From positions 1 to 28,815 of IMG/VR virus record IMGVR_UViG_3300027859_000061: DNA of 28,815 nucleotides; one strand, given 5' to 3'. Within the stretch, counting starts at the first letter, position 1. The number at the start of each line of letters is the position of its first letter. This DNA comes from a virus. Below are positions 257 through 26,693 of this stretch, one piece after another. Position numbers and translations under genes: made by a program. A model generated the notes under the pieces. The model worked only from the letters and a program-made list of their open reading frames with translations, did not search any database and was not told where the DNA came from.

Positions 257-889
257 TTAAGGAAGATAGTTAATCCATCCTGTGATTGCATACTTAGTAT
301 CTTGCAATGGTGGGTTACCTCTATGCACATGAGTAAACCCAGCTGGCCAACATACAAATCTTCCTTTCACTGGCGATACTCTTACACCTTGATATAAGAA
401 TTCTGTTTCACCACCATCTTCTACATCATTTAGATACACCATGTATGCAAGTATACTTGTTCTATCATATGCACTTGAACCACCTTCGAAATGCCAGTTA
501 TGATATCCTTCACTTGGTCTTGTCTTTTGCATTTTCATTTGTGCATTATAAAGACCACTATAAACACCTGAGTCAATTACAGGATATCTTATTTGCCATG
601 ATTCTATCACATCATTGTGAATCCAATCACCTATATCTCTGATTGCACCATTAGTCATTGTGTCCATCTCTGTAATGAATATTGATGTATCTGACCTCTG
701 TGCGATATGAGCGCCATAGTCTCTTCGTGTATGAGTTAGACCATGTTCTTCATGTTCATCAAATATACGGATACATTCATCACATACATCATCACCAATA
801 ATACCATCTAGTATTCTTATATGTTCACCAGTCGAATCATCCCATGGTAATTCTACTCTGTTCTTTACTGTTTCTCTATTATCTGCCAT
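257..889 (-). CDS. 2OG-Fe(II) oxygenase, prolyl-4-hydroxylase-like
   Basis: This 210-aa protein has the double-stranded beta-helix pattern of the P4H-like 2OG-Fe(II) oxygenases. The metal site reads YHNWHFEGG, so the first two ligands would be H133 and E135 (HxE in place of the usual HxD). The distal histidine is H189 in HVHRGNPP, and K199 in KYAITGW is placed to bind the 2-oxoglutarate carboxylate. Such enzymes use 2-oxoglutarate, O2 and Fe(II) to hydroxylate a substrate, which cannot be predicted here. It is the last of four tandem oxygenase-like genes; its ATG overlaps the stop of the upstream one as TAATG, so translation is probably coupled. The HxE variant leaves some doubt about activity. 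Confidence 0.85.
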   Translation of the reverse strand: MADNRETVKNRVELPWDDSTGEHIRILDGIIGDDVCDECIRIFDEHEEHGLTHTRRDYGAHIAQRSDTSIFITEMDTMTNGAIRDIGDWIHNDVIESWQIRYPVIDSGVYSGLYNAQMKMQKTRPSEGYHNWHFEGGSSAYDRTSILAYMVYLNDVEDGGETEFLYQGVRVSPVKGRFVCWPAGFTHVHRGNPPLQDTKYAITGWINYLP

Positions 890-1560
890 TATTCTTCTCT
901 CTCGTGTTCATCTCTACCGAACCATATCAGTAGAACAAATCGTTGACCCTCATATATCGGTTCAACCCCATGCCACATTTTTGTAGAATTGTTAAAGAAT
1001 GTAATTGTTCCTATATCTTTTGCAACTAGATTACCTTGCACATTGAGTTGACCGCCTTTGTAGTCATCATTGAGTTGCATGATACATGTTCCAAAGTCTG
1101 TATCTTCTGCAACATCTCTATGAAAAGGGAAGAATGAATCTTCTTTGTAGTGAACAATTTGCATGTATGTAATTCTTCTAAAGTCAGGATGGTCTGGTAT
1201 CAAATGACCCATGACTTCTAATACTGCATTGTATTCTTTTGAACCATCGGCGATAGTCGCATGGTCTTTGTTATGGTCTGCCTCATATTTGTATGATAAG
1301 TTTCTTTCTGTTATCTCATCTGGTGGTGTCACCTCTGAGTTTGCATAATCACATTCAGTAAACGGTAAGTTTAGAAATTGTTCTATGATATGGTCACAAC
1401 CCGCTGGTGTAATTATGTGTGGTATTATCGTAATGAAATCACTGTTGCGTTCTATTTCAAACTCTTCGCCTGAATATTTGTCTACAACAACTTCTGATTC
1501 TGTTTGTTCTTCTGCACCATCCATCTTTGATTGTGCATATGTTCCTAAATTAATAACCAT
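889..1560 (-). CDS. 2OG-Fe(II) oxygenase
   Basis: The protein has 223 aa from the chosen start. FFPFHRDVAEDTDFGTC supplies the HxD iron ligands (H147, D149), MWHGVEP the distal His (H197), and the Arg of EGQRFVLLIWFGR (R207) is the likely 2OG-binding residue. This is a complete catalytic set for a 2OG-Fe(II) dioxygenase; the substrate is unknown. Another in-frame ATG lies six bases upstream at 1566, but the Shine-Dalgarno sequence AAAAGGAG (1567-1574) directly abuts that codon, whereas it has six-base spacing to the ATG at 1560, so 1560 is preferred. The gene overlaps its upstream neighbour by 11 bases and its downstream neighbour by one. Confidence 0.85.
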   Translation of the reverse strand: MVINLGTYAQSKMDGAEEQTESEVVVDKYSGEEFEIERNSDFITIIPHIITPAGCDHIIEQFLNLPFTECDYANSEVTPPDEITERNLSYKYEADHNKDHATIADGSKEYNAVLEVMGHLIPDHPDFRRITYMQIVHYKEDSFFPFHRDVAEDTDFGTCIMQLNDDYKGGQLNVQGNLVAKDIGTITFFNNSTKMWHGVEPIYEGQRFVLLIWFGRDEHEREE

Positions 1561-2266
1561 TGTCATCTCCTTTTGGGTGATAGAAAGTCACTTGCGTGAA
1601 TCTCCAGTTTTCTAAGTATCTATGATAGTCTTCTATATATGCACCATGCATACAATTACCAGGAAATATCACACATCGATTGAACTTCGCAGGTATAACT
1701 TTTCTTATGTTGAATCTCTCTTCTACAGGATATAATAATGCCATGTTCTCATCGTTAGTAATCCATTCACCATCATATATTGCAGTTCCACCATCTTCTT
1801 GTTTATCAAGATAGACTAACATGTTGAGTGTAGACAAATGGTCTGGCGTATTCAATGCACTATCAATGTGAGGATAGTGTTGCATCTTCTTATCAAATAC
1901 TTCTGCTGTCTTGAAACAGTTGAACTCATATAGGCGTGACCAATCATAATGACCTTTGAAGAAATATCGTCTGCATAAATCTAATAATCTCTGTTGAGAG
2001 TTTTCATATAATCTAGTTGGGTGACCAACCTTGTCTACAATTCTACAGTCGAAGTAATCTATACCATTGCGTGTGTTAGATTCAGGATTATATTTCCATA
2101 ATGGGTATTGTCTGTTGATTAAGAACTCGTGTAAGTCTTCTGCATTTTCATAGAAGTCATCTATCACAATTGAGAAACCATCGAATGTATGATTATCAAA
2201 TGAACCTCTCATTTTGTATAGTTCATCGTAATCTACTATTCTGTTGATGTCATCTATGTGGTTCAT
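1550..2266 (-). CDS. 2OG-Fe(II) oxygenase-like protein
   Basis: This 238-aa protein carries a recognisable facial triad: H133 and D135 in YPHIDSAL, and H207 in FPGNCMHGAY, with R222 (NWRFTQ) in the expected 2OG-binding position. The segment LNMLVYLDKQEDGGTAIY matches the core strands of the fold, where a GGT(A/E)IY/F pattern is typical of phage and bacterial members. The substrate is unknown. The start ATG overlaps the TGA of the preceding gene (ATGA), so it is translationally coupled. It differs strongly from its three oxygenase neighbours, so the cluster is not a simple recent tandem duplication. Confidence 0.8.
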   Translation of the reverse strand: MNHIDDINRIVDYDELYKMRGSFDNHTFDGFSIVIDDFYENAEDLHEFLINRQYPLWKYNPESNTRNGIDYFDCRIVDKVGHPTRLYENSQQRLLDLCRRYFFKGHYDWSRLYEFNCFKTAEVFDKKMQHYPHIDSALNTPDHLSTLNMLVYLDKQEDGGTAIYDGEWITNDENMALLYPVEERFNIRKVIPAKFNRCVIFPGNCMHGAYIEDYHRYLENWRFTQVTFYHPKGDDNGY

Positions 2267-3006
2267 GTCAAAACTCCATAATCAAATTGGTCGCCATGAT
2301 GATATGATTCTAAATCTTCGGCGTGTTGTAAGTTAAAGGATATACTTATGCGTTCATAAGATTCATTTTCTCGTGGGTGACCCTTTGGTACGCTATGCAT
2401 TAGATACGATGGCCACAATAAAAAGTCACCATCTTGTGGGTGAAAGTTGAATGATGTATGTTGTCGACCAGTAAATTCATATTGTGAGTCTTCTGGTCTC
2501 ATCTCATCATCATTACCTGACTGACTATGTAATGCAGGCATATTAGGATTCCAGAACTTGATTGGTTCTGATGAGTCTTGCGTTGAGACATAGTATGTGC
2601 CTGATAGTCTAGACTTAACATGATTATGACATTCATGGTCATGTGGTTCATTGTATACATTCACCCATGCAAAGAAATGTATATCGTGTCTATTGACATC
2701 TGTAAAATCTAAATTGTATTGACTTCTACAAAACTCAACATAGGTATCTTTCATCTGATTTGCAAAGTCATTATACCAAGGTTGTTGGTGTGTCTGTTCT
2801 CTTGCATCAGGATAAAAGTATGTGGTGTATTCTGTTAGTGGGTCACCTTTCGGTAATGTGTCTATTATATTTCTACAGTGGTGTGCAACCTCTGTATGAT
2901 TTAGATTTACTTTTCCTTGAAATATAGTTGTAGGGAAGACATTGACATAATCTCCTCTACAAGGTGAATAAGTATTGTTAATTCTGTTCGTCTGTATTGG
3001 TTTCAT
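2263..3006 (-). CDS. Putative 2OG-Fe(II) oxygenase (2OG-FeII_Oxy_5-like)
   Basis: The 247-aa protein resembles the family of putative 2OG-Fe(II) oxygenases in which the iron site sits in an H-x-H...SGTYYV context: here H127 and H129 precede SRLSGTYYVST. The later part GDFLLWPSYLMHSVPKGH gives the distal His (H204), and the Arg in ERISISFNL (R219) is the likely 2OG ligand. The N-terminal VNVFPTTIFQGKV is also usual for this family. His replacing Asp as second ligand is a family feature rather than damage. Its start lies 29 bases inside the preceding lipoprotein gene, and the next gene begins at its stop. It is the first of four tandem oxygenase-like genes. Confidence 0.75.
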   Translation of the reverse strand: MKPIQTNRINNTYSPCRGDYVNVFPTTIFQGKVNLNHTEVAHHCRNIIDTLPKGDPLTEYTTYFYPDAREQTHQQPWYNDFANQMKDTYVEFCRSQYNLDFTDVNRHDIHFFAWVNVYNEPHDHECHNHVKSRLSGTYYVSTQDSSEPIKFWNPNMPALHSQSGNDDEMRPEDSQYEFTGRQHTSFNFHPQDGDFLLWPSYLMHSVPKGHPRENESYERISISFNLQHAEDLESYHHGDQFDYGVLT

Positions 3007-4170: not shown

Positions 4171-4670
4171 TTTCTGAGGTCTTTTAGAATGTTGATAGTA
4201 TTCTTTGCACTAGTGTGAACTATGCCGATACCACCTGCCTCTTCCCATGCATCGATGTTCTTTTGTCTATCATCGATTAGAACAGAACCCTCATAGGCGT
4301 ATGCCGCCTTTTGTGTCCCTGTAAATGTGCAAGTCACTGGCACAGTAGGGTCAACATGTCTCTTAATCCATTCGTTCTTATCAAACACAACCAACTCTCT
4401 GTTGACTTCACCAGCGGCAGTCAATATCTCCCATGGTGTTTCACAATGTCTGACATATGCAAGTAAGTCATACATGTCAACCATAGGTGGCAAGTTTGCG
4501 AATAGTCTTTTGTTAGTAAGTTCTTCTTTTCTTATATCGTATGTAGTGTGACCTGCATCATCATTAGTAAGTGGTTCACCCAAATACTGAGGCATTTCTA
4601 CACCCCTCAAAAAGTCGGCGAGAACACCGTCCATGTCTAAAAATATTCTTTTTATTTTTCCTTTCATCAT
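4161..4670 (-). CDS. HAD-family 5'(3')-deoxyribonucleotidase-like phosphatase
   Basis: The 169-aa protein opens with the HAD motif I FLDMDGVLADF (nucleophile D12, acid/base D14), has a motif II-like ILTAAGE, and ends with motif IV SVLIDDRQKN. The small size and DMDGVLADF signature match the NT5C-like deoxyribonucleotidases of phages, which remove phosphate from (deoxy)nucleoside monophosphates; a role in tuning nucleotide pools would fit the upstream nrd operon. The frame extends to a TTG at 4706, but that TTG is the first base triplet of a perfect -35 box. The start at 4670, six bases after the TATAAT box, is therefore chosen; it also places motif I close to the N-terminus as in homologues. 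Confidence 0.8.
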   Translation of the reverse strand: MMKGKIKRIFLDMDGVLADFLRGVEMPQYLGEPLTNDDAGHTTYDIRKEELTNKRLFANLPPMVDMYDLLAYVRHCETPWEILTAAGEVNRELVVFDKNEWIKRHVDPTVPVTCTFTGTQKAAYAYEGSVLIDDRQKNIDAWEEAGGIGIVHTSAKNTINILKDLRNNN

Positions 4671-4676
4671 GTAAGT

Positions 4677-4706
4677 ATTATAGTCTTTTTTGATGGTCAT
4701 TGTCAA
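4677..4706 (-). promoter_or_regulatory. Consensus sigma70 promoter for the HAD gene
   Basis: On the minus strand a perfect TTGACA (4701-4706) and a perfect TATAAT (4677-4682) are 18 bases apart. The -10 box ends six bases before the ATG at 4670, so the transcript should begin at or next to the start codon. The promoter lies inside the 3' end of the HExxH gene, indicating that the HAD gene can be transcribed separately from the nrd operon. Confidence 0.7.
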
Positions 4707-5016
4707 GGGTGGTTTCTAGTAAATACGCCTCATTTTCATCTAAAGGTTCACCATTTAGAACCTGTCTAGCATGCACCATTTCGTGTGCAAGTGTGATATA
4801 TCTTTCTTGATTGAGTTTGACATATATGTTGATATATGTGCGTTTGCCTAATATTCTTGGGTGTTCTATGATACCCATTTGACTAAAAGATGGCGGTAAT
4901 CTCTTTATCTCGATGACTGCATTGTGGTGGTCGATACCCAATGTTTTAGAATAGTCGACTGCCTTCTCTAACAGTAATGTGTTTTTACAGTAAATCTCCA
5001 TCTTCAAGTTCTTCAT
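4678..5016 (-). CDS. Small HExxH metalloprotease-like protein
   Basis: This 112-aa protein contains an HExxH zinc-binding helix, ITLAHEMVHARQ (H78, E79, H82), with an acidic helix 14 residues later (ENEAYLLE, around E96) that could give the third ligand, as in short zincin or SprT-like domains. Outside this motif I find no recognised domain, and the short length leaves substrate recognition unexplained. It overlaps the 55-aa zinc-ribbon gene and is part of the tightly packed operon downstream of nrdB. The alternative start at 5001 would shorten the protein by five residues without touching the motif. Confidence 0.65.
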   Translation of the reverse strand: MKNLKMEIYCKNTLLLEKAVDYSKTLGIDHHNAVIEIKRLPPSFSQMGIIEHPRILGKRTYINIYVKLNQERYITLAHEMVHARQVLNGEPLDENEAYLLETTLDNDHQKRL

Positions 5017-5152
5017 TATATACTTCTAAATCTTCTTCGCCACACATAGGACAACATACTGGTCGTAAATCCTCGTGTTCTTCTCGCACCTCTGTGATAT
5101 CAATAGTCATATCAAGGTCGCAATCGGCACAATAGATGTGATGTCTAATCAT
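4985..5152 (-). CDS. Zinc-ribbon-like small protein (55 aa)
   Basis: An open frame from ATG at 5152 to TAA at 4985 encodes 55 residues. It has two Cys pairs, YCADC near residues 7-11 and CCPMCG near 33-38, separated by an acidic/charged stretch, which suggests a single zinc ribbon. It fills the only gap between the 84-aa gene and the HExxH gene, overlapping both by 8 and 32 bases, in line with the compact operon. Function unknown; small phage zinc ribbons are often transcription or nuclease adaptors, but nothing here decides that. Confidence 0.65.
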   Translation of the reverse strand: MIRHHIYCADCDLDMTIDITEVREEHEDLRPVCCPMCGEEDLEVYNEELEDGDLL

Positions 5153-5399
5153 CTTTTTCCTCGTCTAGTTTCTTCTCTCCTATGACTTCATCATAGAAGT
5201 TCTCAAATGACTTTGATTTACCATTTATTGTTGCATATGGTAATTCTCTGTCTTCTGGTGGATTCATAAAGTCTTCGCCCTTTGTATATACTCTGACTTC
5301 ATGTTCATCATGGTCTATGGTTCTAATGACATGTTTCCACCTCATATCTATAACATCTTGTTCGTTAGGATGGTTCAGATATAAGATGTAAGAGTTCAT
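5145..5399 (-). CDS. Hypothetical acidic protein
   Basis: The 84-aa product has no motif that I recognise. It has a short beta-like N-terminus (NSYILYLN), many charged residues and an acidic, Lys/Glu-rich C-terminus. The start codon overlaps the glutaredoxin stop (ATGA), so the two are coupled in translation. Its place inside the nrd/redox operon suggests an accessory role there, by position only. Confidence 0.6.
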   Translation of the reverse strand: MNSYILYLNHPNEQDVIDMRWKHVIRTIDHDEHEVRVYTKGEDFMNPPEDRELPYATINGKSKSFENFYDEVIGEKKLDEEKDD

Positions 5400-5629
5400 A
5401 CTTTTCTATAACCCTTAGACCATTCTTCTAGTTCAGTGTAACCACCTATGTTTTCACCATGAACTCTGATTTGTGGAAATGTTCTTGCACCAGGAAACTT
5501 GTCTAACATTTCTTCTCTGCCAAAATCTGTTCCTAATGATTGATATGTGTATTCATACCCTTTCATTTCACATAATTGTTTTGCCCTATCACAAAAAGGA
5601 CATTGTGGTTTTCCGTATATCTCTATCAT
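5396..5629 (-). CDS. Glutaredoxin
   Basis: This 77-aa protein is a complete glutaredoxin: active site CPFC (C10-C13), the cis-proline segment TFPQI (T50-P52) and the glutathione-binding GGYTEL (from G62). It should use glutathione to reduce disulfides in the cytoplasm; the obvious partner is the C-terminal CxxC of the NrdA encoded upstream, since each round of ribonucleotide reduction leaves that pair oxidised. Start and stop overlap neighbours as ATGA on both sides, placing it firmly in the nrd operon between the cytochrome c gene and an 84-aa unknown. Confidence 0.93.
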   Translation of the reverse strand: MIEIYGKPQCPFCDRAKQLCEMKGYEYTYQSLGTDFGREEMLDKFPGARTFPQIRVHGENIGGYTELEEWSKGYRKV

Positions 5630-6075
5630 TCTGGTAACCCCGCTTCTATAAATTCGCCAATAGTATCTATATCACTATCTGATAATAGACCTGCCTGAGC
5701 CCACATAGTTGAACTCATATTGCCGACTGTTTCTCTATTTTGATAGGCGTATAACCTATCGACTATGTATTCTTTACTTTGACCTGCAAGTGCAGGAAAT
5801 ACTCCCATACCCTCGCCTTTCTGACCATGACAAGCGGCACAACCACCCCATAGACCACGAATAGAACTGAATTCGTCAAGACTTGCAAGTGCTTGTTTCT
5901 CTCTTAATTGTTCTACAACAGTTCCGTTTTCTTCGACATATTTGACATAACATTCACCTGTGCATGAACTGTTTCTTGGGTAACCTTTGTATTCTAAGTT
6001 GTTATATGTATGACTTAAAAGACCATACATGAACCCACATATGCCTATTACTAAATAAAATGCATTTTCTCTCAT
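5626..6075 (-). CDS. Membrane-anchored cytochrome c, class I (c553-like)
   Basis: The 149-aa protein has an N-terminal hydrophobic segment (residues 6-21) acting as signal peptide or membrane anchor. It then has a linker with a CTGEC pair (C38, C42) and a cytochrome c domain: heme-binding CAACH at 79-83, GxGxxxFPALAGQS, and a likely axial Met at M124 in TMWAQAGLLSDSDI, typical of c553-type proteins. It should sit on the periplasmic side and need the host's heme-attachment machinery. An upstream in-frame start at 6165 would place 30 extra residues before the signal; the ATG at 6075 is chosen because it overlaps the previous stop as ATGA and puts the hydrophobic segment at the N-terminus. Cytochromes are unusual phage cargo. 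A role as an electron shuttle that keeps respiration going during infection is inference. Confidence 0.88.
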   Translation of the reverse strand: MRENAFYLVIGICGFMYGLLSHTYNNLEYKGYPRNSSCTGECYVKYVEENGTVVEQLREKQALASLDEFSSIRGLWGGCAACHGQKGEGMGVFPALAGQSKEYIVDRLYAYQNRETVGNMSSTMWAQAGLLSDSDIDTIGEFIEAGLPE

Positions 6076-6293
6076 AGTTTTATTGCCAATAGTAAGAAAA
6101 TCGCCATCAATGTGATGTTTGCAAAGAACATCAATAAACCTAGTATCGTATGATACCAAATCCATCTTGTCTTGTATGCGTTCTCTATTGTTAATTCATC
6201 GGGGTCAGGCGAACCATCTGTATTTCTTGCAACTTTTTTAGATAGTTCTTCCTCTTCTCTACTTCCCCATAGTATTTGCCACCATTTGTTCAT
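6072..6293 (-). CDS. Small membrane protein next to cytochrome c
   Basis: The 73-aa protein has a charged, cytoplasmic-type N-terminal half (EEEELSKKVARNTDG) and a hydrophobic C-terminal half from residue 44 (WIWYHTILGLL... to LLLAIKL), long enough for one long or two short membrane helices. I recognise no family. It lies between nrdB and the cytochrome c gene with ATGA overlaps on both sides, so it is co-translated with the cytochrome and could be its membrane partner or dock it to a host oxidase. That is inference from position and topology. Confidence 0.7.
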   Translation of the reverse strand: MNKWWQILWGSREEEELSKKVARNTDGSPDPDELTIENAYKTRWIWYHTILGLLMFFANITLMAIFLLLAIKL

Positions 6294-7387
6294 AATTTGA
6301 AATCCTGAAATGTATCGTCACTGACATCTTGTTTAATCCCACCAATGACATAAGATTCAATCTCTGTCTCTTGTGGGGCGTTCTGTAATCCTCTACTATT
6401 CAACCAGTGACGAGTCCATGGTAAAGGATTGTTAGCAGATGATACATCGTATATTGGGTTGAGACCAATCATTCTTAATCTCTTGTTTGCAATATACTCG
6501 ACATACTTATTCAATAGTGGTACCGATAAACCTATCATACTACCATCTTTGAATAGAAACTCTGCCCATTCTTTTTCTTGTGCAACTGCATCTTCATACA
6601 TCTCGTAAACTTCTTGTTCACAATCTTTCATGACTTTATTCATTATCTTATCATTCTCATGTTTCTGATAACATTTAAGTATGTGTTGTGATGTTGCAAG
6701 GTGTTGTGCCTCATCTCTGGCGATGAATGATATTATCTTCGCACTTCCTTCCATCAGTTTAAGTTCACCAAATGCAAAACTACATGCAAATGATACGAAA
6801 AATCTTATGCCCTCTAGTATGTTGACTGATACAAGTGCAAGATATAATGCCTTGTATAGTTCATACTCATCTACTTTCAACCCTAAGAGTTGTCTACGAC
6901 CTAATTCTATGAAATGGTCATACTTTTCTGTGACCATAACTGCCCTCTTAATGATTGCATCTTCGTCTAAAATAGTGTCAAATACATCGGCAGGGTTTGG
7001 GTATATGTTCTTGATGATATGTGTATAACTTCTACTATGAATAGTCTCCATGAAGTCCCATGTAATGATACAAGACTCTAGTTCAGGTAAAGTGACGAAT
7101 GGTAAGAATGCTATGGACGGCGCTCTACCTTGAACTGAGTCTAGTAAAGTTTGATATCTGAGATTAGAAGTAAAGATATGTTTTTGTGCATCATTGAGTG
7201 TTGCGTAATCGTTTCTATCTTTTTGTAATGATACTTCTTCTGGTCTCCAGAAATACCCTAATTGTGTTTGTGTAAGTTTGTCAAAGATAGGATATTTGAA
7301 CTCATCAAATCTTTGCGTGTTTAGTTCTTCACCAAAGAATAACTTGTTCTTTGTGAAATCGATTTTGTTCTTATTAAATACTGTCAT
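6290..7387 (-). CDS. nrdB: Ribonucleotide reductase class Ia, small subunit
   Basis: This 365-aa protein is the radical-generating beta subunit of aerobic ribonucleotide reductase. All diiron ligands and the radical tyrosine are present. D83 lies in LLDSVQGR, E114 and H117 in METIHSRSY, the radical Y121 follows directly, E192 lies in NILEGIRF, and E226 and H229 in RDEAQH. They match E. coli D84, E115, H118, Y122, E204, E238 and H241. The frame opens at 7411, but the ATG at 7387 overlaps the preceding TGA (ATGA) and gives the usual N-terminus TVFNxN, so it is preferred. It works with the NrdA encoded upstream; the two genes are separated by an oxygenase gene. Confidence 0.97.
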   Translation of the reverse strand: MTVFNKNKIDFTKNKLFFGEELNTQRFDEFKYPIFDKLTQTQLGYFWRPEEVSLQKDRNDYATLNDAQKHIFTSNLRYQTLLDSVQGRAPSIAFLPFVTLPELESCIITWDFMETIHSRSYTHIIKNIYPNPADVFDTILDEDAIIKRAVMVTEKYDHFIELGRRQLLGLKVDEYELYKALYLALVSVNILEGIRFFVSFACSFAFGELKLMEGSAKIISFIARDEAQHLATSQHILKCYQKHENDKIMNKVMKDCEQEVYEMYEDAVAQEKEWAEFLFKDGSMIGLSVPLLNKYVEYIANKRLRMIGLNPIYDVSSANNPLPWTRHWLNSRGLQNAPQETEIESYVIGGIKQDVSDDTFQDFKL

Positions 7388-12488: not shown

Positions 12489-14291
12489 TTAATAGTCGTA
12501 TCTTTTGAGAATTCGTGTATAGAGTTTCTCAGCCTCTTTTTTGTTCTTGTCTTTATATCTATTTCTACTTCTGACAAGTGGCGTATCTGTTGATACAGCG
12601 GCGCCTGTTGCGTTCACTGGTGCATCTTCATCTATGACATTGTTATGGGCATCCCAATCTAGAATGTATTCCATCATGTCATCTGCAACTTTATAACCTG
12701 CGGTCTTATCACTAGGATAGTGTATACCTGCGTTGACTCTTCCTTCACCCGATTTGTCTGCCATTTCAAATAATTTATCTTGATGTGCAGGATATATTTT
12801 ACTATAGTAGTTTGCAATTACTTTTGCCTGTAGTGCATGATTACTAGGATACGCAGGTGAATGTGCTGTCTCAGTATCTAAGAACTTTATAGGCATACCA
12901 AGTTTCTCTGCGACAACATATGGTCTTGGTCTCATGTATTTGTTTTTAAAATGTCTGCCTACATTTCTTGCACTTTTCTTTAATAGTTCCATAAAGTTCT
13001 CGTTGAACTCTAAGTCATTGTCTTCCATGTATTCTTTGATATAGTATGATGTGTCTTCATCTGTATCAATATACTCTTTCTTCTTGGCGTCAGATAAGTT
13101 TTTAATTTGTTTACTCATCTGTTCTAATTCTGCCTTTGTCTCTTTTGATGTGTTTGCAGGCGGGTCTTTCATCTCTAGTTTATCTAGACATTTGATATCA
13201 AAATATTTACCTAGTTCTTTCTTCTTAACATTTTTTGCATCGAATTGTGATTTAAGACTATCTAACTTCTGAACTGACTCAATAAACATCTCATTCTGAA
13301 TACCAAGTTTCTTGTCAACTGCCTTTGTGCCTTTCTCTATTGATTGACCCATTGACTCTGCCCATTTGACCATTCTCTCTTTCATGACTTTGCCTGCCTT
13401 AGTCTCACCTGCACTCTGTAATCCTGAGTATGTCAATGCAAGTGCAAGACCTGTAGCACCACCCATCCAGATAGGAAGACCGCCTGTTGCCATACCTACA
13501 GATAGTAAACCCATACCTTTTATACCATCAGGTGTGGCGATTAGTTCTCTGAAACCTGCCTCTCCTGCAAATGCTTGTGGTATTATCGTAAGGTCAAAAT
13601 CAGATTCAATATCACCTGAGAATGACATTCTTAACCACTGACCAATTGCAAGTCCTGATACTGCAACTGCACTCAGTTTTGATAGTGCTGGGTTTGACTG
13701 CATAAACTCATCAGTCTTTATGATACCTCTTTCTAATTTCTGAAATGATTTTGTATCATGAATAGCGGCGCCACCAACTGTAAGAGTTTTACCTACAGTT
13801 CTAAGTGTGCCCATGACAATTCTTGATGATGCGGATATAGAACCACCAATTGCCTTAACTGTATTGTATACTGATGGTTGTTTAAATGCAATTTGTATTG
13901 TTTCTAAATCGGCGCCAACTGCATCTACAACACTTTGAACATGTTGTTTTAAGTCTTTGACTGTATCTGGTAATGTCTCATCTACTTCTGGTTCTTGTTC
14001 TGCCTCTGCACCATCACCAACACCATCTGCATAATCATCTGCCTCTTTGTCTTCTGGTTCTGGTTCGTCTGATTGTGATTTGTCGGCGATTGCCTTTTTG
14101 AGTTGTTTTGTTTTCTCTGAATCAGGATGTGCCTTGATGTATGCCTGTTGTTTCTCTGGCGACATATCAAAGAACCATGCATCTTTCTTTTTAGTTTCTT
14201 CGATTAGTAATTCTTCGAATACTAAATCTACAGTGTCACACCATTTTCTATAGTCTTCATCTATGTGATATAATACTTCTTCAATATACAT
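12489..14291 (-). CDS. 600-aa protein with C-terminal PAP2-type phosphatase domain
   Basis: Residues 1-60 are charged, 70-110 an acidic linker (EPEPEDKEADD), 150-310 contain Gly/Ala-rich hydrophobic stretches (GLLSVGMATGGLP), and 320-430 are coiled-coil-like. Residues 449-528 carry the full PAP2/vanadium-haloperoxidase signature. Motif 1 is K449-x6-R456-P457, motif 2 is PSNH (482-485, Asn for the usual Gly), and motif 3 is R518-x5-H524-x3-D528. The domain should remove phosphate from a phospholipid, nucleotide or other phosphoester via a phospho-His intermediate. Its placement in a large protein among virion-type genes suggests a structural or injected enzyme rather than a housekeeping one; that is inference. 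The start overlaps the previous gene by 11 bases. No signal peptide is visible. Confidence 0.75.
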   Translation of the reverse strand: MYIEEVLYHIDEDYRKWCDTVDLVFEELLIEETKKKDAWFFDMSPEKQQAYIKAHPDSEKTKQLKKAIADKSQSDEPEPEDKEADDYADGVGDGAEAEQEPEVDETLPDTVKDLKQHVQSVVDAVGADLETIQIAFKQPSVYNTVKAIGGSISASSRIVMGTLRTVGKTLTVGGAAIHDTKSFQKLERGIIKTDEFMQSNPALSKLSAVAVSGLAIGQWLRMSFSGDIESDFDLTIIPQAFAGEAGFRELIATPDGIKGMGLLSVGMATGGLPIWMGGATGLALALTYSGLQSAGETKAGKVMKERMVKWAESMGQSIEKGTKAVDKKLGIQNEMFIESVQKLDSLKSQFDAKNVKKKELGKYFDIKCLDKLEMKDPPANTSKETKAELEQMSKQIKNLSDAKKKEYIDTDEDTSYYIKEYMEDNDLEFNENFMELLKKSARNVGRHFKNKYMRPRPYVVAEKLGMPIKFLDTETAHSPAYPSNHALQAKVIANYYSKIYPAHQDKLFEMADKSGEGRVNAGIHYPSDKTAGYKVADDMMEYILDWDAHNNVIDEDAPVNATGAAVSTDTPLVRSRNRYKDKNKKEAEKLYTRILKRYDY

Positions 14292-21544: not shown

Positions 21545-22081
21545 TTACCAGAAAAATGAACCACCACCACTCAAACCTAATTGTTTTGCGTATCTTGGTA
21601 GTCTACAAGACCAATAACCTGGTGTAGTTTTATCGTTTGCAGTATCACAATTATGTCTTGCAACATAAGATGCTCTTGCTTTTGGGTCTTTGAATTTTAC
21701 ACTTAGACCTGATGTATCTCCAAATGTGACTTTCTTTACTTTGTCACCATCTTTGACATACACATAAAACTTCTTAGGCCCACCTGCTTTTGGTTTGCCT
21801 ATAGGTTTGTCTTCATTCTCTTCGTTTATTTCCATCATAGGACAATCTAAGGGAACTAAATTGCCCTCAAATACATCATATTCACCTAAATCTGTTTCTA
21901 GAATCATACCATCTATTTCGGTAAGTCTATATTTTTGTTCTTTTGCGAGTCTTCGTGCCTCGTTAATGATTTCGAAATACATCATTGAACCTAATCTGAA
22001 AGGATTGTCTAACAGATTTGTATGGTTTATCTGCATCTCATCGAGTGTTTCTCTTATTGCAAGTTCTTTGAATGTCTTCAT
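21545..22081 (-). CDS. Candidate head-targeted protein with DUF5872-like domain
   Basis: The 178-aa protein begins MKTFKELAIRETLDE, a T4-type capsid-targeting leader with a possible cut after I-R-E (residues 9-11). The C-terminal half (about 95-175) matches what I know of DUF5872: KKFYVYVKDGDKVKKVTFGD, then ARHNCDTANDKTTPGYWSCR and LPRYAKQLGL. The paired Cys (HNC, WSC) suggest a metal site or disulfide. Function of the domain is unknown; it is common in phages and could bind DNA. The ATG overlaps the upstream TGA as ATGA, which fixes the start at the targeting peptide. Confidence 0.7.
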   Translation of the reverse strand: MKTFKELAIRETLDEMQINHTNLLDNPFRLGSMMYFEIINEARRLAKEQKYRLTEIDGMILETDLGEYDVFEGNLVPLDCPMMEINEENEDKPIGKPKAGGPKKFYVYVKDGDKVKKVTFGDTSGLSVKFKDPKARASYVARHNCDTANDKTTPGYWSCRLPRYAKQLGLSGGGSFFW

Positions 22082-22488: not shown

Positions 22489-22787
22489 TAGTCTTCTAAG
22501 TCTACCTTACCGTCCCATTTGCCTGATTCAATTTGTCGTATCATGTCATAACATGCACTTTCGACTGCTTGTAAACCTTTAAATATTTTGTCTGGTCCTT
22601 GAGCTGCACGATTGTTATATTGAAACTTCTCGTGGTCTTTGTTAAGTTTTTCAACAGTCTTTAAAATCTTTCTATAACCATTGATTTCTGACTTTCTGTT
22701 AAACTCTGAACCTTTTTTCTCAGCAGGACTTTTCTTATGAAAGTCTATTCTCTCGTTCAGTTGATTATATTCTTTAAATGATTTCAT
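22488..22787 (-). CDS. Small head-targeted protein of unknown function
   Basis: The 99-aa protein begins MKSFKEYNQLNERID, with the targeting pattern and a site L-N-E at residues 10-12. The rest is a charged helical protein with SACYDMIRQIESGKWDG near the C-terminus; no family is recognised. TAATG overlaps at both ends place it in a translationally coupled chain with the DUF5824-like gene upstream and the basic protein downstream. Confidence 0.65.
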   Translation of the reverse strand: MKSFKEYNQLNERIDFHKKSPAEKKGSEFNRKSEINGYRKILKTVEKLNKDHEKFQYNNRAAQGPDKIFKGLQAVESACYDMIRQIESGKWDGKVDLED

Positions 22788-23272
22788 TATTTACCACCAA
22801 CTTGTTTTGCGAGGTCTTGGTCTGCACCACCCCATGTTCCTTTAGACTTTGTAGTAAAACTATTCACTCTTGCCAGACCCCATTGGGTTGGATTAGTTCC
22901 TGGTCTATGTCCTGTTCGCCATGCCGCTACACCTCTTTTGAATACTTTCTTTAGTATACCCAATGGCATGCCTGATTTCTCTGCTTTGTTTTTCAAAGCG
23001 GCATCAGGATTTGATTCTTCTAATTCAATAGCAGCCAAGTCTTCTTCAATCTCCATAAGATTTTTATCAAACCCAAACTGTTCGTTGTAAGGAAAACCTT
23101 TTAGTGGATTATCAAAAGCCATAGAAAAATGTTGTTTCTGTTGTGCATCATTGGCCTTTTTTGCTTCTTTGATGTATTCATCTACACTCTCTTTGTAGTT
23201 AGTTTCTAACTCACCTGGTGTCTCTGACTGTAGGTATTTTAGATACTCATCTGTTCCCATTTCATGTGGCAT
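22787..23272 (-). CDS. DUF5824-like phage protein
   Basis: Residues 90-161 match the DUF5824 pattern found in many T4-like phages: AEKSGMPLGILKKVFKRGVA, then AWRTGHRPGTNPTQWGLARV and NSFTTKSKGTWGGAD. The N-terminal half is acidic and contains NPLKGFPYNE at residues 55-64, shared with the 845-aa protein. Function of the domain is unknown. Unlike its downstream neighbours it lacks an MKTF leader. The gene follows the DUF6321-like gene by one base. Confidence 0.7.
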   Translation of the reverse strand: MPHEMGTDEYLKYLQSETPGELETNYKESVDEYIKEAKKANDAQQKQHFSMAFDNPLKGFPYNEQFGFDKNLMEIEEDLAAIELEESNPDAALKNKAEKSGMPLGILKKVFKRGVAAWRTGHRPGTNPTQWGLARVNSFTTKSKGTWGGADQDLAKQVGGK

Positions 23273-23273
23273 G

Positions 23274-24191
23274 TTATTTCTCCTTCTTATCTAAATAGGC
23301 GGCAATCGCCATTTGTCTAATCTTTTTATCTGACTTACCTTTAAACTGTGGTGCATCAGACTTTCTAAAATCGTCTATGTAATCTCCTGCATCTGCATTT
23401 GGTCCTAGTTCTTCATACTTAACTTTGTGCATTTTGTCTTTGATTTGGTCCATTCTCTTATGAATACCCATTAAAGAATCTTTTCTTCCACCTGACTCAG
23501 CCTTATCTGCCTGTGTTCTTAAATCGGCAAGTTGTTTCTTCAAGTTCATATACTTACGCACATCATATGATTCTTCTAGTTCTTCATTGTATTGTGCAAC
23601 AATCATACCTATTTGATTGATAAGAGATGTGATTACTGGTGTAGGTAATGTTGATAGTTGTTGCATTGTATCTTTAGATAGACCTTTAACTTTCTTTAGA
23701 TTCTTTTTCCAAGTAGATATTGCAGTCATATCTTTGTTCTTTTCATTCATCTCTGGAACACAATCTGGTACCATTTTCTTACCTTTCTTCTTCATACCAA
23801 CTTGTTTATAACCATCCCAACATGCTTCTTTTTCTAGTCTTTTGCCATCTTTATCATACTTACCTGATTTTTTCTTTGCGATAGCAATTGCGGCTTGTTG
23901 TGCAGGTGATACTGCCTCACCATACATTTGTTTGAACTTATCTGTATGTTTAGATGGTTTAGTTTTCTTTAGTTTGCCGTCTTTGTCTCTATCACCTGGT
24001 GCTTCTTTGTATGCATTAGGGTTGTCATCAGACATACTTGCACCCTTTTTAAAGTGTGCATCTCTGGCGTCTTTCTTATCTTTCTTTACACCTGAATAGT
24101 ATTTCTTAGGTTGAGTTCCCTTTTTGTCATCGACATCTGGGTCTTGTGCGACTCTTCTAAGTTTTTCTAATATGTTATCTAACTGACTCAT
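23274..24191 (-). CDS. DUF6321-like phage protein
   Basis: The 305-aa protein has near its N-terminus the block KKYYSGVKKDKKDARDAHFK followed by DDNPNAYKEAPGD, which I associate with DUF6321 of marine T4-like phages. A second block, CWDGYKQVGMKKKGKKMVPD with Cys at 124 and 144, recurs in such phages as well. The C-terminal half is helical and Lys/Asp-rich. No activity is known. The start is at ATG 24191, five bases after a perfect late box, without a Shine-Dalgarno sequence. Confidence 0.65.
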   Translation of the reverse strand: MSQLDNILEKLRRVAQDPDVDDKKGTQPKKYYSGVKKDKKDARDAHFKKGASMSDDNPNAYKEAPGDRDKDGKLKKTKPSKHTDKFKQMYGEAVSPAQQAAIAIAKKKSGKYDKDGKRLEKEACWDGYKQVGMKKKGKKMVPDCVPEMNEKNKDMTAISTWKKNLKKVKGLSKDTMQQLSTLPTPVITSLINQIGMIVAQYNEELEESYDVRKYMNLKKQLADLRTQADKAESGGRKDSLMGIHKRMDQIKDKMHKVKYEELGPNADAGDYIDDFRKSDAPQFKGKSDKKIRQMAIAAYLDKKEK

Positions 24192-24195
24192 AATA

Positions 24196-25488
24196 CTATT
24201 TATACTTTTTTGTAAGTAATTGTCTTTGTCTCCATAAAGAAGAAGGTTTGTTATTAGGGAAAGATGTAGACCATGTCATAAGTTTACTAAACAATGAGTT
24301 TGTTTTCTTTTGTAGTGTTGACAAATCATCATCATTTGTGACTTGAACAAAGTCTTTTTTGAATATCTTCTTCATGATATCAATATTCTTTTGTGACCTA
24401 TCCCAATCTTTCTTAACTATTTCAGGTGGTAATTTTCTAGCACGCATTGAGTTTCTTTTTTGTGCGTTATCTAATGATGCACTTACATACACCATCTTAG
24501 ATTCATACCCCAATCTATCTAACATACCTTTGTAGAATTTAATCTTACTTGAATCTGCACTTGTAGTATCGAAAACAAGACCTAGTCTGCCATCAATGTA
24601 TCTGTCCATCATTCTAGTAGTTTGTCTTTTTGCTTTCTTTCTGATTGGGTCTCTGATTTCAGCAGGCACAGTTTTTAAATCTAGAGTTTGACCTGCCTTT
24701 TTTAAACCTGTTTCAAATGATTTATCTGTATTGACTATCTTCAAACCTAATGCCTTGAATGATAATTTATTTACTACAGTTGATTTACCAGAACCTGGAC
24801 CACCCATTAAGAATACTGCCTTGAAAATGCCTGGGTCATATACACCCTCTTGAATTAAATCTTCTTGCATGTAAAGTGGTAGGTGTGTATCTTCGTTGAT
24901 ACCCATACCCTTACGCACATCTTTGTATAGTTTGTCTGCGAACTGTTTATTTGCCACACCTTGTTTGAATGTGTCGAAGTCTCCTTGTTCAGCGGCAGCT
25001 CTCATTTTACTTGCACTCATTCCTGATACATCATCTGCATCGGGGTCTCTCTCACCTGCACTGACTATCTGTATCTCATCGAACTTATAGAAACCATGTC
25101 TTGCCTTTGTGCCATTGTATTTCTTTAGTAATGCATCGAACTCTCTGATTCTATCTGAACCTGCAACCATATAGATACTTCTATACCCTTGACTGTATAA
25201 TGCGTTTGCAATTTCAAATACAGTTCTTGCACTGACATCTGGCACTTTGACTTTCTTACCAAAGAACTTTCTTAGATAGTTTACTTTCTGTTTGTGATTG
25301 AGTGGATTCTTTTTCTTATCGTTTGAATGTGATGTAAATACCATTGCATCACCACCAACTTTCTTTGCAAGTCTATTCAATACATCAACTAGTTTTGCGT
25401 GTCCTGTTGTCGGTGGATTGAAACGACCAAATGCAAACACTACTGGTCTGTTCTTTGCTTCTGATATAAATCTTTTTAGTGTTTTCAT
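24196..25488 (-). CDS. Capsid-targeted NMNAT-like nucleotidyltransferase fused to P-loop kinase
   Basis: The 430-aa protein starts MKTLKRFISEAKNRP, a capsid-targeting-like leader with I-S-E/A at residues 8-11. Residues 16-195 form an HIGH-type nucleotidyltransferase: GRFNPPTTGH (21-30) and MSASKMR (157-163), as in NMN adenylyltransferases. Residues 222-410 are a P-loop kinase: GGPGSGKST (229-237) and VFDTTSADSS, close to zeta-toxin/PNK-type kinases. Between them, I212-Q-E214/G fits the prohead-protease rule, so the two domains might be separated in the head. The order resembles NadR (NMNAT plus nicotinamide-riboside kinase), making NAD salvage a candidate, though the kinase half looks less like NadR. 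An upstream TTG at 25500 is rejected: ATG 25488 shares its A with the upstream stop (TAATG) and starts exactly at the leader. Confidence 0.75.
   Translation of the reverse strand: MKTLKRFISEAKNRPVVFAFGRFNPPTTGHAKLVDVLNRLAKKVGGDAMVFTSHSNDKKKNPLNHKQKVNYLRKFFGKKVKVPDVSARTVFEIANALYSQGYRSIYMVAGSDRIREFDALLKKYNGTKARHGFYKFDEIQIVSAGERDPDADDVSGMSASKMRAAAEQGDFDTFKQGVANKQFADKLYKDVRKGMGINEDTHLPLYMQEDLIQEGVYDPGIFKAVFLMGGPGSGKSTVVNKLSFKALGLKIVNTDKSFETGLKKAGQTLDLKTVPAEIRDPIRKKAKRQTTRMMDRYIDGRLGLVFDTTSADSSKIKFYKGMLDRLGYESKMVYVSASLDNAQKRNSMRARKLPPEIVKKDWDRSQKNIDIMKKIFKKDFVQVTNDDDLSTLQKKTNSLFSKLMTWSTSFPNNKPSSLWRQRQLLTKKYK
24197..24204 (-). promoter_or_regulatory. Late-promoter box TATAAATA
   Basis: A perfect late box on the minus strand overlaps the last two codons and stop of the kinase-fusion gene (TAT AAA TAG) and ends five bases before the ATG at 24191. 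The T4 rule puts the first transcribed base at the start codon. Confidence 0.6.
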
Positions 25489-26693
25489 TATTTGTCCCAA
25501 TTCTTGGCGACTGTAAAGTTATTTAGTGAGAACTCCATTCGGTCTACTAACTTCACTGCCTTGCCATCGTTATCAATTGCAACATATCCTTCTGGATTTA
25601 CTGTCTTCAATCCATTAGAGTCTCTTACAAATGTTCCTATTGATTTTGCTTTGTTTAGTCCTTTTATTATTATATCTTTACCATCAACTAGATTAGTTTG
25701 AAATATAGTCAATGCATTGATGAACACCTTTAAACCTAATAGTTCTCTTCTGAGTTGTTCACCCATTTGTCTTTTTTGTTCTTTTGTTTTTTCCATTTTG
25801 ACTTTTGCAACTACTTTGTTTTTCCAATAGTCATCAAAATGTTTTATGTAATCTGCATAAGAGAGTTTGAATTTACCCTTTCTTATCTGAGTATTCATAT
25901 ATGTTTTGTATGTTGCACCTGCACCTTTCTTCGCAATGGTGTCTTGAACTTTCATAAACTTTATCAATGCAGGTCTTTTGATTTGTCTAAATGCTTTACC
26001 TGTTGTTGATAATGCCTTTGACAATGCAACTGATTCTTTTGCTGTGAGTGTAGAATTACCTGATACATCTTTGTATGTTGCATCATCAATCCATACATCT
26101 CTAGAATTACCTAGTGTTGATATGTCTGCACCAAATGATGCACTAAGGTCTTCTATTGAACCACCAGTGTATGTGGTGTGAAATACTATACCATATTTTG
26201 CGTTTGCAATCTTCTCACCTAAGTCTGATTTGATATCAACTGCATACATTATGGTGTTTGGTTGAAATGTGACACAATCTACATCATCTATCTTTTGCAT
26301 CTTCTTGTCTGAGTCTGTAAACATCAAATCACCTTGCAGTATCTTGTTCCAAGATAGTTTAGATAGATGTCTGAATGATTCTAAGAACTTAGTTTCTAAG
26401 TCGCCAGACAACTCAGGAGCGTCTTTAATCGCCTGTTCTGAGGTGTAATGTAGTTGTGCTTTAGTGAATAGTGATTTCTTTGCGACAAAGAACTGACCTG
26501 TCTCTGGATGTTTTCCTGCCCATATTGCAGGTGCACCATCCCATTTTACAGTCATGTTTACACCACGAGATGAATTGCCTTTCATCATGTCTCGAAGTGA
26601 TTGTAGGAAGTTTATAGATGCACGACCACCATCAATACCATTGTTGATGATTTCGTCTTCTAAATGCTCTAGATGTAGATTTTTCACTGCCAT
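25488..26693 (-). CDS. Divergent covalent nucleotidyltransferase (ATP-ligase-like)
   Basis: The 401-aa protein carries the ordered motifs of the ligase/capping-enzyme superfamily. Motif I is KWDG (K50 the expected nucleotidyl-lysine), then ILQGDLMF (119-126, motif III with Asp for Glu), EGYV (368-371, motif IV) and KAVKL (378-382, motif V). The 240 residues between III and IV far exceed the usual spacing and include a Lys-rich helical insert (about 230-345). It would activate an RNA, DNA or other 5' phosphate with AMP or GMP. I associate the KWDGAPA context with the uncharacterised DUF6267-type phage proteins. A late promoter and hairpin leader precede it, and it is coupled to the nucleotidyltransferase/kinase gene by TAATG, suggesting a joint task. 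Confidence 0.7.
   Translation of the reverse strand: MAVKNLHLEHLEDEIINNGIDGGRASINFLQSLRDMMKGNSSRGVNMTVKWDGAPAIWAGKHPETGQFFVAKKSLFTKAQLHYTSEQAIKDAPELSGDLETKFLESFRHLSKLSWNKILQGDLMFTDSDKKMQKIDDVDCVTFQPNTIMYAVDIKSDLGEKIANAKYGIVFHTTYTGGSIEDLSASFGADISTLGNSRDVWIDDATYKDVSGNSTLTAKESVALSKALSTTGKAFRQIKRPALIKFMKVQDTIAKKGAGATYKTYMNTQIRKGKFKLSYADYIKHFDDYWKNKVVAKVKMEKTKEQKRQMGEQLRRELLGLKVFINALTIFQTNLVDGKDIIIKGLNKAKSIGTFVRDSNGLKTVNPEGYVAIDNDGKAVKLVDRMEFSLNNFTVAKNWDK

Follow-up and report, generated by a model that had tools for sequence, protein, structure and literature searches.

Phage T4 fills its head with a family of internal proteins that are described as packaged and ejected (PMC9026906; papers given by PMC number are cited here from excerpts), and in one of these, IPIII, residues 4 and 7 count for targeting and residues 8 and 10 for processing (PMC9026906). 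In the giant phage SPN3US, proteins that are packaged and ejected are cut after Glu by the prohead protease gp245 (PMC10052503); the cuts reported in the excerpted text take off propeptides at the N-terminus, or the tail of the protease itself, and do not split two enzymes. By mass spectrometry, cyanophage virions, in turn, contain a nucleotidyltransferase (NT) annotated as nicotinamide mononucleotide adenylyltransferase (NMNAT) or cytidylyltransferase. The citidylyltransferase T4-GC190 was found in S-SM1 virions and is encoded but undetected in S-PM2 (PMC3037559), S-SCSM1 virions contain an NMNAT (PMC9602691), and a cytidylyltransferase is reported from S-CREM2 virions, with others cited (PMC10665884). 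Packaging of this NT family is largely known already. Here we examine P0001, a protein that joins a homologous HIGH-type NT to a P-loop kinase and is encoded by a marine T4-like phage in virus record IMGVR_UViG_3300027859_000061. The window analyzed is the entire record of 28,815 bases, whose nearest named relatives are Kyanoviridae (T4-like) phages. P0001 is probably a polyprotein cargo that is targeted to a T4-type head and processed by a gp21-type protease. T4 cargo matures by end trimming (Alt at both termini), whereas the internal site of P0001 would split two enzymes. The T4-GC190 proteins of cyanophages differ in being without a kinase domain, and the excerpts available describe no targeting leader or cut sites for them.

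The initial annotation of this gene recognized a leader, a HIGH-type NT, a P-loop kinase, and an I-Q-E/G sequence between the two domains (slashes mark predicted scissile bonds). This observation is confirmed, and its overall interpretation is partly supported. Every motif and residue number proved correct on reading the sequence: MKTLKRFISE/A (residues 1–10/11), GRFNPPTTGH (21–30), MSASKMR (157–163), IQE/G (212–214/215), and then GGPGSGKST (229–237). A TTG at position 25500, upstream of the ATG, is a possible alternative start. Pfam models assign CTP_transf_like (PF01467) to residues 19–123 (28.3 bits versus a gathering score of 21), AAA_33 to residues 225–367 (43.9 versus 27), and Zeta_toxin to residues 223–388 (32.1 versus 22.3). 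The AlphaFold model has a predicted local distance difference test (pLDDT) score of 77.7 and a predicted template modeling score of 0.48. Its stretches of at least three residues with pLDDT below 50 number three in all (1–11, 147–156, and 200–216), two of which are the leader and the joint. Residue 214, where a cut had been proposed, is located in the last of these, so that the model does not refute the proposal by placing it in a folded core. Relatives were taken as the best 80 of 172 from a scan of viral contigs, and 30 rows picked from these form alignment A1. There, the HIGH-type signature (G21–T27, G29–H30, S158–K161, and R163) is invariant in 30/30 rows, and the P-loop signature of the kinase is likewise intact and invariant.

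The leader likens P0001 to IPI–III and Alt of T4, being ten residues long and in the same register. T4 ipII and ipIII, whose sequences were fetched and whose cut positions we in part assume, start with MKTYQEFIAE/A. E10 is invariant across A1, and all 80 kept relatives end the leader with E followed by A or Q, with F at P3 in 9 and Q at P1' in 4. This register, together with the (I/L)xE/A-type end, supports the proposal of a T4-type capsid-targeting leader. Like starts are found in other proteins of the cassette (MKTFKEY, MKTFKEL, MKTFREF, and MKSFKEY). The leader class M.[TSK][FYL]..[FLYWI], which was picked post hoc from the N-termini as the last of several narrower forms, is enriched in the cassette of record G001 (5/21 versus 7/193, p=0.003) and in that of phage HTVC008M (5/20 versus 2/160, p=0.0002). 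Gene sets for this census came from a simple greedy open reading frame (ORF) caller, not from annotation.

Conservation at the domain joint is equally strict. The pattern [ILV]xE/G is present in 80/80 kept relatives (G belonged to the locating pattern), with P2 varying freely (T, Q, M, K, or R) while P3 stays I, L, or V. Within A1, E199, E214, and G215 are invariant, and some 15 residues of the linker are conserved (consensus ExTLPxYMxEDLIxEGVYDPG). In P0001 itself, the motif [ILVM]xE[AGSTN] occurs at residues 10 and 214 only. We counted it among 53 distinct sequences: P0001 and 52 others that come from 78 of the kept relatives, the contig-cut L007 and L022 having been dropped. It is found at 214 in 53/53, at 10 in 43/53, and at linker position 199 in 35/53, with a sole other occurrence near the C-terminus of L078. 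Ten sequences miss at residue 10: four through a start choice that omits the leader, four with F at P3 (e.g., SFNE/A), and two with Q at P1'. In the folded parts (13–196 and 217–430) the motif appears 0 times versus 48.6 expected by shuffling, a contrast that yields no p-value since the 53 sequences share ancestry and the rows are not independent. Together with the low-confidence segment that holds it, this conservation bears out the claim that a head-protease-like site is placed exactly at the domain joint.

The strongest evidence works in both directions: at the level of sequence, the leader end in one phage is the fusion joint in another, and this applies to both enzymes. Searching phage records by tblastn for the kinase domain retrieved eight of them, comprising four Melnitz isolates, HTVC008M twice, and Agrobacterium phage Atu_ph07 twice. 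Stand-alone kinases start with MKTFAELQE/GVYDPN in Melnitz and MIPFILKE/GLYDPG in HTVC008M. Viral contigs supplied 69 further kinase loci, HTVC008M included, of which 68 were readable. All 68 carry [ILV]xE/G (G again belonging to the pattern); in 66 of them the E/G closes an N-terminus of 8–14 residues (one has no upstream stop in its contig), and in the remaining two it is inside a fusion to adenylate kinase at the joint KTFKEMKEFIKE/G. The first half of that fusion ORF matches PF00406 (E 1.7e-36), and the kinase alone could alternatively begin at an internal ATG. The junction SEVTE/G in Atu_ph07 links the kinase to an N-terminal domain of another kind.

The Atu_ph07 protein has 778 amino acids (L133, 3245–5581) and runs from a leader-like MKWNDLNE/A through an N-terminal domain to SEVTE/G and the kinase, behind which two C-terminal stretches appear similar by eye. 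An ADP-ribosyltransferase assignment for the N-terminal part of this protein, gp053, was a by-eye impression found without support from Pfam, PHROGs, or PDB and was dropped.

The converse arrangement is found in phages that encode the kinase alone and place the NT behind another module: E/A directly precedes the NT in 17/17 distinct rows. For locus L190, the module before the NT scores as a Pol-beta-type nucleotidyltransferase (PF01909, 21.7 versus 21 bits). At this locus, an adenylate kinase–kinase fusion and a Pol-beta-like NTase–NT fusion are encoded side by side (4431–5666 and 5663–7345), with site-like joints in both. That the joint of P0001 corresponds to the leader end of stand-alone kinases elsewhere favors the proposal that one precursor may give two separable enzymes. 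A conserved, apparently cleavable joint that matches the leader ends of cargo encoded as separate genes looks new within the literature searched: among the titles listed, which come from open-licence papers only, none concerns a leader for capsid targeting in the NT proteins of cyanophages or pelagiphages, or a joint for the prohead protease inside them, and this negative is weak.

Other NT proteins extend the comparison. Cyanophage-type NT proteins (75 loci, 50 distinct complete rows) have the leader site in 50/50 rows and E290/A before the next module in 50/50. Melnitz-type proteins of 650 amino acids (best 80 of 440 relatives, 46 distinct complete rows) carry three sites, each in 46/46: that of the leader, one where the NT domain ends (after E200), and one after E496. 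The product of window positions 21545–22081 begins its homology at Melnitz residue 498, two residues past E496. By comparison, S-CAM1-type NTs of ~187 amino acids without extra modules (best 80 of 541 relatives, 55 distinct) have a leader in 0/55 distinct sequences and no conserved site. A search of bacterial and archaeal genomes, with patterns from the NT part only, by which kinase-only genes could not be found, returned 23 loci (L214–L236). Of these, 21 are titled metagenome-assembled genomes and two come from one bin, Water_Bin34. L214 matches P0001 over residues 1–428, and the remaining 22 reach no further than residue 229. We regard these loci as phage contigs that were binned together with cells, and they gave no headless control for E/G conservation.

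The processing machinery is at hand in related records, with both a gp21-type protease (PF03420) and a gp23-type capsid protein (PF07068) in all 13 searched. Capsid N-termini were readable in 10 of the 13 (two had none and one was a wrong ORF), and LxE stands at the expected propeptide end in 10/10; the next residue is A (7 sequences), T (2), or I (1). We take LLRE/S of T4 gp24 and FLTE/A of T4 gp23 to be the same type of site (sequences fetched; cut positions assumed in part). Leaders of the same type are read on the virion-detected NTs, namely MKKFSAFLNE/A in S-SM1, MKSFLQFLKE/A in S-SCSM1, and MKNFSSFLTE/A in S-CREM2. The S-PM2 protein annotated as T4-GC190 follows a part of DUF6267, a family also encoded next to P0001; it has no [ILV]xE site directly before the NT, and the start of its ORF is tentative. 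The NT of Pseudomonas phage PA5oct is leaderless and is without the electrospray tandem mass spectrometry (ESI-MS/MS) note borne by 6/8 features in its stretch.

From these data, we propose that residues 1–10 would target the P0001 precursor into the prohead core, where a gp21-type prohead protease would cut after E10 and at the joint, after E214 and perhaps also after E199. This would leave the HIGH-type nucleotidyltransferase and the P-loop kinase as separate proteins in the capsid, from where both may pass into the host together with the DNA. The joint itself could have arisen when two cargo genes fused and the cut site of the second gene's leader was kept, and in relatives these modules would be joined, separated, and newly combined at the same sites. 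The features concerned and their neighbors are collected in Table 1.

Table 1. Positions in the window of P0001, its parts, and neighboring cassette genes
Feature	Position	Strand	Details or basis
NT-kinase precursor P0001, 430 aa	24196–25488	minus	ATG at 25488, stop 24196–24198; NT is the HIGH-type nucleotidyltransferase
Capsid-targeting-like leader MKTLKRFISE, residues 1–10, predicted cut E10/A11	25459–25488	minus	T4 likeness, conservation, low pLDDT
HIGH-type nucleotidyltransferase domain, residues 13–196	24901–25452	minus	Pfam CTP_transf_like; matches to PPAT and NMNAT models
Interdomain linker, residues 197–216, candidate cuts after E199 and E214	24841–24900	minus	pLDDT <50 over 200–216; conservation
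E214/G215 codons, predicted scissile bond of I-Q-E/G	24844–24849	minus	Conservation in fusions and further kinase loci
P-loop kinase domain, residues 217–430	24199–24840	minus	Pfam AAA_33, Zeta_toxin; structural matches
DUF6267 gene directly upstream	25488–26693	minus	PF19782, E 1.1e-92; invariant KWDG, EGYVAI, VKLV
Cassette protein; module inside NT polyprotein in HTVC008M and Melnitz	23274–24191	minus	Homology
Cassette protein with DUF5824; elsewhere a module inside NT polyprotein	22787–23272	minus	Pfam, homology
Cassette protein, start MKTFKELAIRE; last Melnitz polyprotein module, after conserved LIE/S	21545–22081	minus	Homology

Among the neighbors, the DUF6267 protein keeps its three motifs in 22/22 rows, and these resemble what we take to be motifs I, IV, and V of ligase/capping nucleotidyltransferases. 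In S-PM2 (L477), the C-terminal half of DUF6267 shares one ORF with the NT. The DUF6267 model has a pLDDT of 71.9, with residues 349–401 below 50. Its best Foldseek row has an E value of 0.2, and over residues about 44–211 it matches RNA-editing, tRNA, and DNA ligases at Z 5–6, within the noise (Z <8); the top rows from VIA are unrelated. With the model and the structural matches this weak, we do not claim DUF6267 as a ligase. Elsewhere in the window, a cytochrome c-type phage gene (5626–6165, minus strand) has a CAACH motif and matches PF00034 (28.7 versus 21.3 bits), a 600-residue cassette protein (12489–14291, minus strand) has a subthreshold match to PAP2 phosphatase (E 0.0015), and a row of oxygenase-like genes spans 257–3006 (minus strand), of which 2263–3006 matches the 2OG-Fe(II) oxygenase family PF13759 and the others were recognized by eye.

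Several observations weigh against the head-targeted polyprotein reading. Cutting, packaging, and injection of P0001 are predictions from its sequence, and the 28.8-kb window record, which may be a fragment, has no PF03420 protease match. The NT of S-CREM1 bears a leader (MKRYTNFLSE/A), and the excerpted summary of its virion lists 14 proteins, of which four are structural and ten either lack a known function or are unmatched, and names no NT (PMC9964418); authors also caution about possible carry-over into virions (PMC10665884, PMC9602691). Across S-SM1, S-SCSM1, S-CREM2, S-CREM1, S-PM2, and PA5oct, the phages that the virion comparison covers (S-CBWM1, S-SZBM1, Syn9, and S-CRM01 are left out, although the NT leaders of the last two were read), leader-bearing NTs are reported in virions in 3/4 and leaderless ones in 0/2. 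This is suggestive, no more, and a clean split of three with and two without was dropped given that S-CREM1 has a leader and no reported detection. A loose census of N-terminal motifs in whole gene sets is at chance by comparison with shuffles (7 versus 5.1 in the window, 35 versus 29.0 in G001, and 23 versus 21.2 in HTVC008M), and a strict census gives 2 versus 0.2, 3 versus 1.8, and 0 versus 1.1, respectively. The leader class enriched in other cassettes is not enriched in that of the window (5/18 versus 3/19, p=0.31), and a wider class gives p=0.15 (G001), 0.02 (HTVC008M), and 0.32 (window). HTVC008M-type NTs keep a targeting-like MKTLKELLRKK without the cut Glu in 10/10 distinct short rows and in L001; the loci concerned are 12648–14438 of L001 and relatives among L134–L155. 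A rule of one site per joint is not clean in the polyprotein sequences either. The motif also occurs inside modules of Melnitz-type proteins (at 34 in 18/46, 534 in 42/46, 544 in 17/46, and 556 in 24/46) and of cyanophage-type proteins (at 242 in 18/50, 264 in 20/50, and 328 in 17/50). Given that the leaderless NT group is likewise motif-depleted (9 versus 17 expected), a scarcity of the motif within this fold does not set packaged forms apart. If the motif matches were accidental and P0001 an ordinary cytoplasmic phage enzyme, the chance-level census and the unreported S-CREM1 protein would be expected; the conservation and positions of the motif, and the detection of leader-bearing relatives in virions, make this very improbable. 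An enzyme that is packaged and loses only its leader, with two domains held together by a structural linker that includes E214–G215, deserves more weight and still seems unlikely. E214–G215 lies immediately before VYDPGIFKA, an invariant motif of the kinase, and its conservation, like that of the linker as a whole, could be structural or for folding. Such a linker would not account for the pLDDT below 50 over 200–216, the freedom of P2 beside a constrained P3, or the same E/G closing the short N-termini of stand-alone kinases and recurring after unrelated partners.

As to chemistry, we infer that the NT-kinase acts on nucleotides. The NT domain model matches phosphopantetheine adenylyltransferase (PPAT; Z about 15) and archaeal NMNAT (Z 13.4) about equally, and the kinase model matches polynucleotide kinase 4gp7 (Z 14.1), PSTK (13.6), and UMP-CMP kinase (13.6), tied within 1. 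The initial annotation pointed to NadR and nicotinamide adenine dinucleotide (NAD), and P0001 might be a NadR-like bifunctional NAD-salvage enzyme made in infection to refill NAD after host NADase defense. It shares with NadR the order of HIGH NTase then P-loop kinase, jumbo phages are described as having such fusions for NAD (PMC7824862), and the depositor annotation of the S-CREM1 NT is "bifunctional NadR-like protein." The structure comparison upheld the NMNAT fold and the domain order but not a closer kinship: NadR 6gyf is the top Foldseek row at full length, yet with a TM score of 0.26 and a root-mean-square deviation of 12.7, and the models therefore agree in domain order and not as whole proteins. 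NadR chains are absent among the 50 VIA structural matches listed, which is no test of NadR likeness. Both NCBIfam cutoffs were missed by far, with 30.0 versus a curated 341.15 bits for NadR (TIGR01526, residues 19–79 only) and 18.8 versus 112.45 for NMNAT (TIGR00482), and membership in either family was rejected. The kinase sits with AAA_33 and zeta-type proteins; AAA_28, presumably the class of NadR's kinase, scores 17.1 versus 27. The link to NAD is not supported in the form first stated. A salvage enzyme would also leave the leader and the predicted cleavable joint unexplained, and the kinase is found without the NT, fused to adenylate kinase. We consider this account unlikely, although a NAD role is possible. 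A role at RNA or DNA ends is possible to about the same degree. Here, P0001 would belong to an injected repair or modification set (a PNK-like kinase, ligase-like DUF6267, and NTases) that might, for example, mend tRNAs cut by anticodon nucleases of the host. The kinase indeed looks zeta- or polynucleotide kinase (PNK)-like from its sequence and model, sharing fold and Pfam families with zeta-toxin/AAA_33 kinases, the tRNA kinase PSTK, and bacterial PNK. The invariant DUF6267 motifs, its weak ligase matches, and the L190 gene that joins a Pol-beta-type NTase to the NT point the same way. The substrate residues differ from those of PNK as far as read, and the kinase of P0001 is part of a putative head-cargo precursor. 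D255 is invariant in A1, and the partner Arg of what we assume to be the catalytic Asp/Arg motif of PNK is absent from its usual place three residues on. It is not obvious where the NT would act in a repair pathway, and the poor DUF6267 model and noise-level matches lend little to a ligase. We consider this set unlikely, to the same degree as NAD salvage. Two P-loop matches from PADLOC, to mad8 and mad3, are weak (E 0.0011 each).

Returning to head-targeted polyprotein cargo, we hold one generalization more tentatively, with doubt and belief close to balanced: that marine T4-like phages build injected cargo as mix-and-match polyproteins, in which fused cargo proteins keep their leader cut sites and the head protease acts as the release enzyme for a set of injected nucleotide-handling enzymes. 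The module set would comprise the HIGH NTase, the Pol-beta-like NTase, adenylate kinase, the zeta/PNK-like kinase, and the ligase-like DUF6267. If this is true, capsid maturation would mature injected enzymes as well, and the joints at which phage head cargo is fused could be read from sequence.

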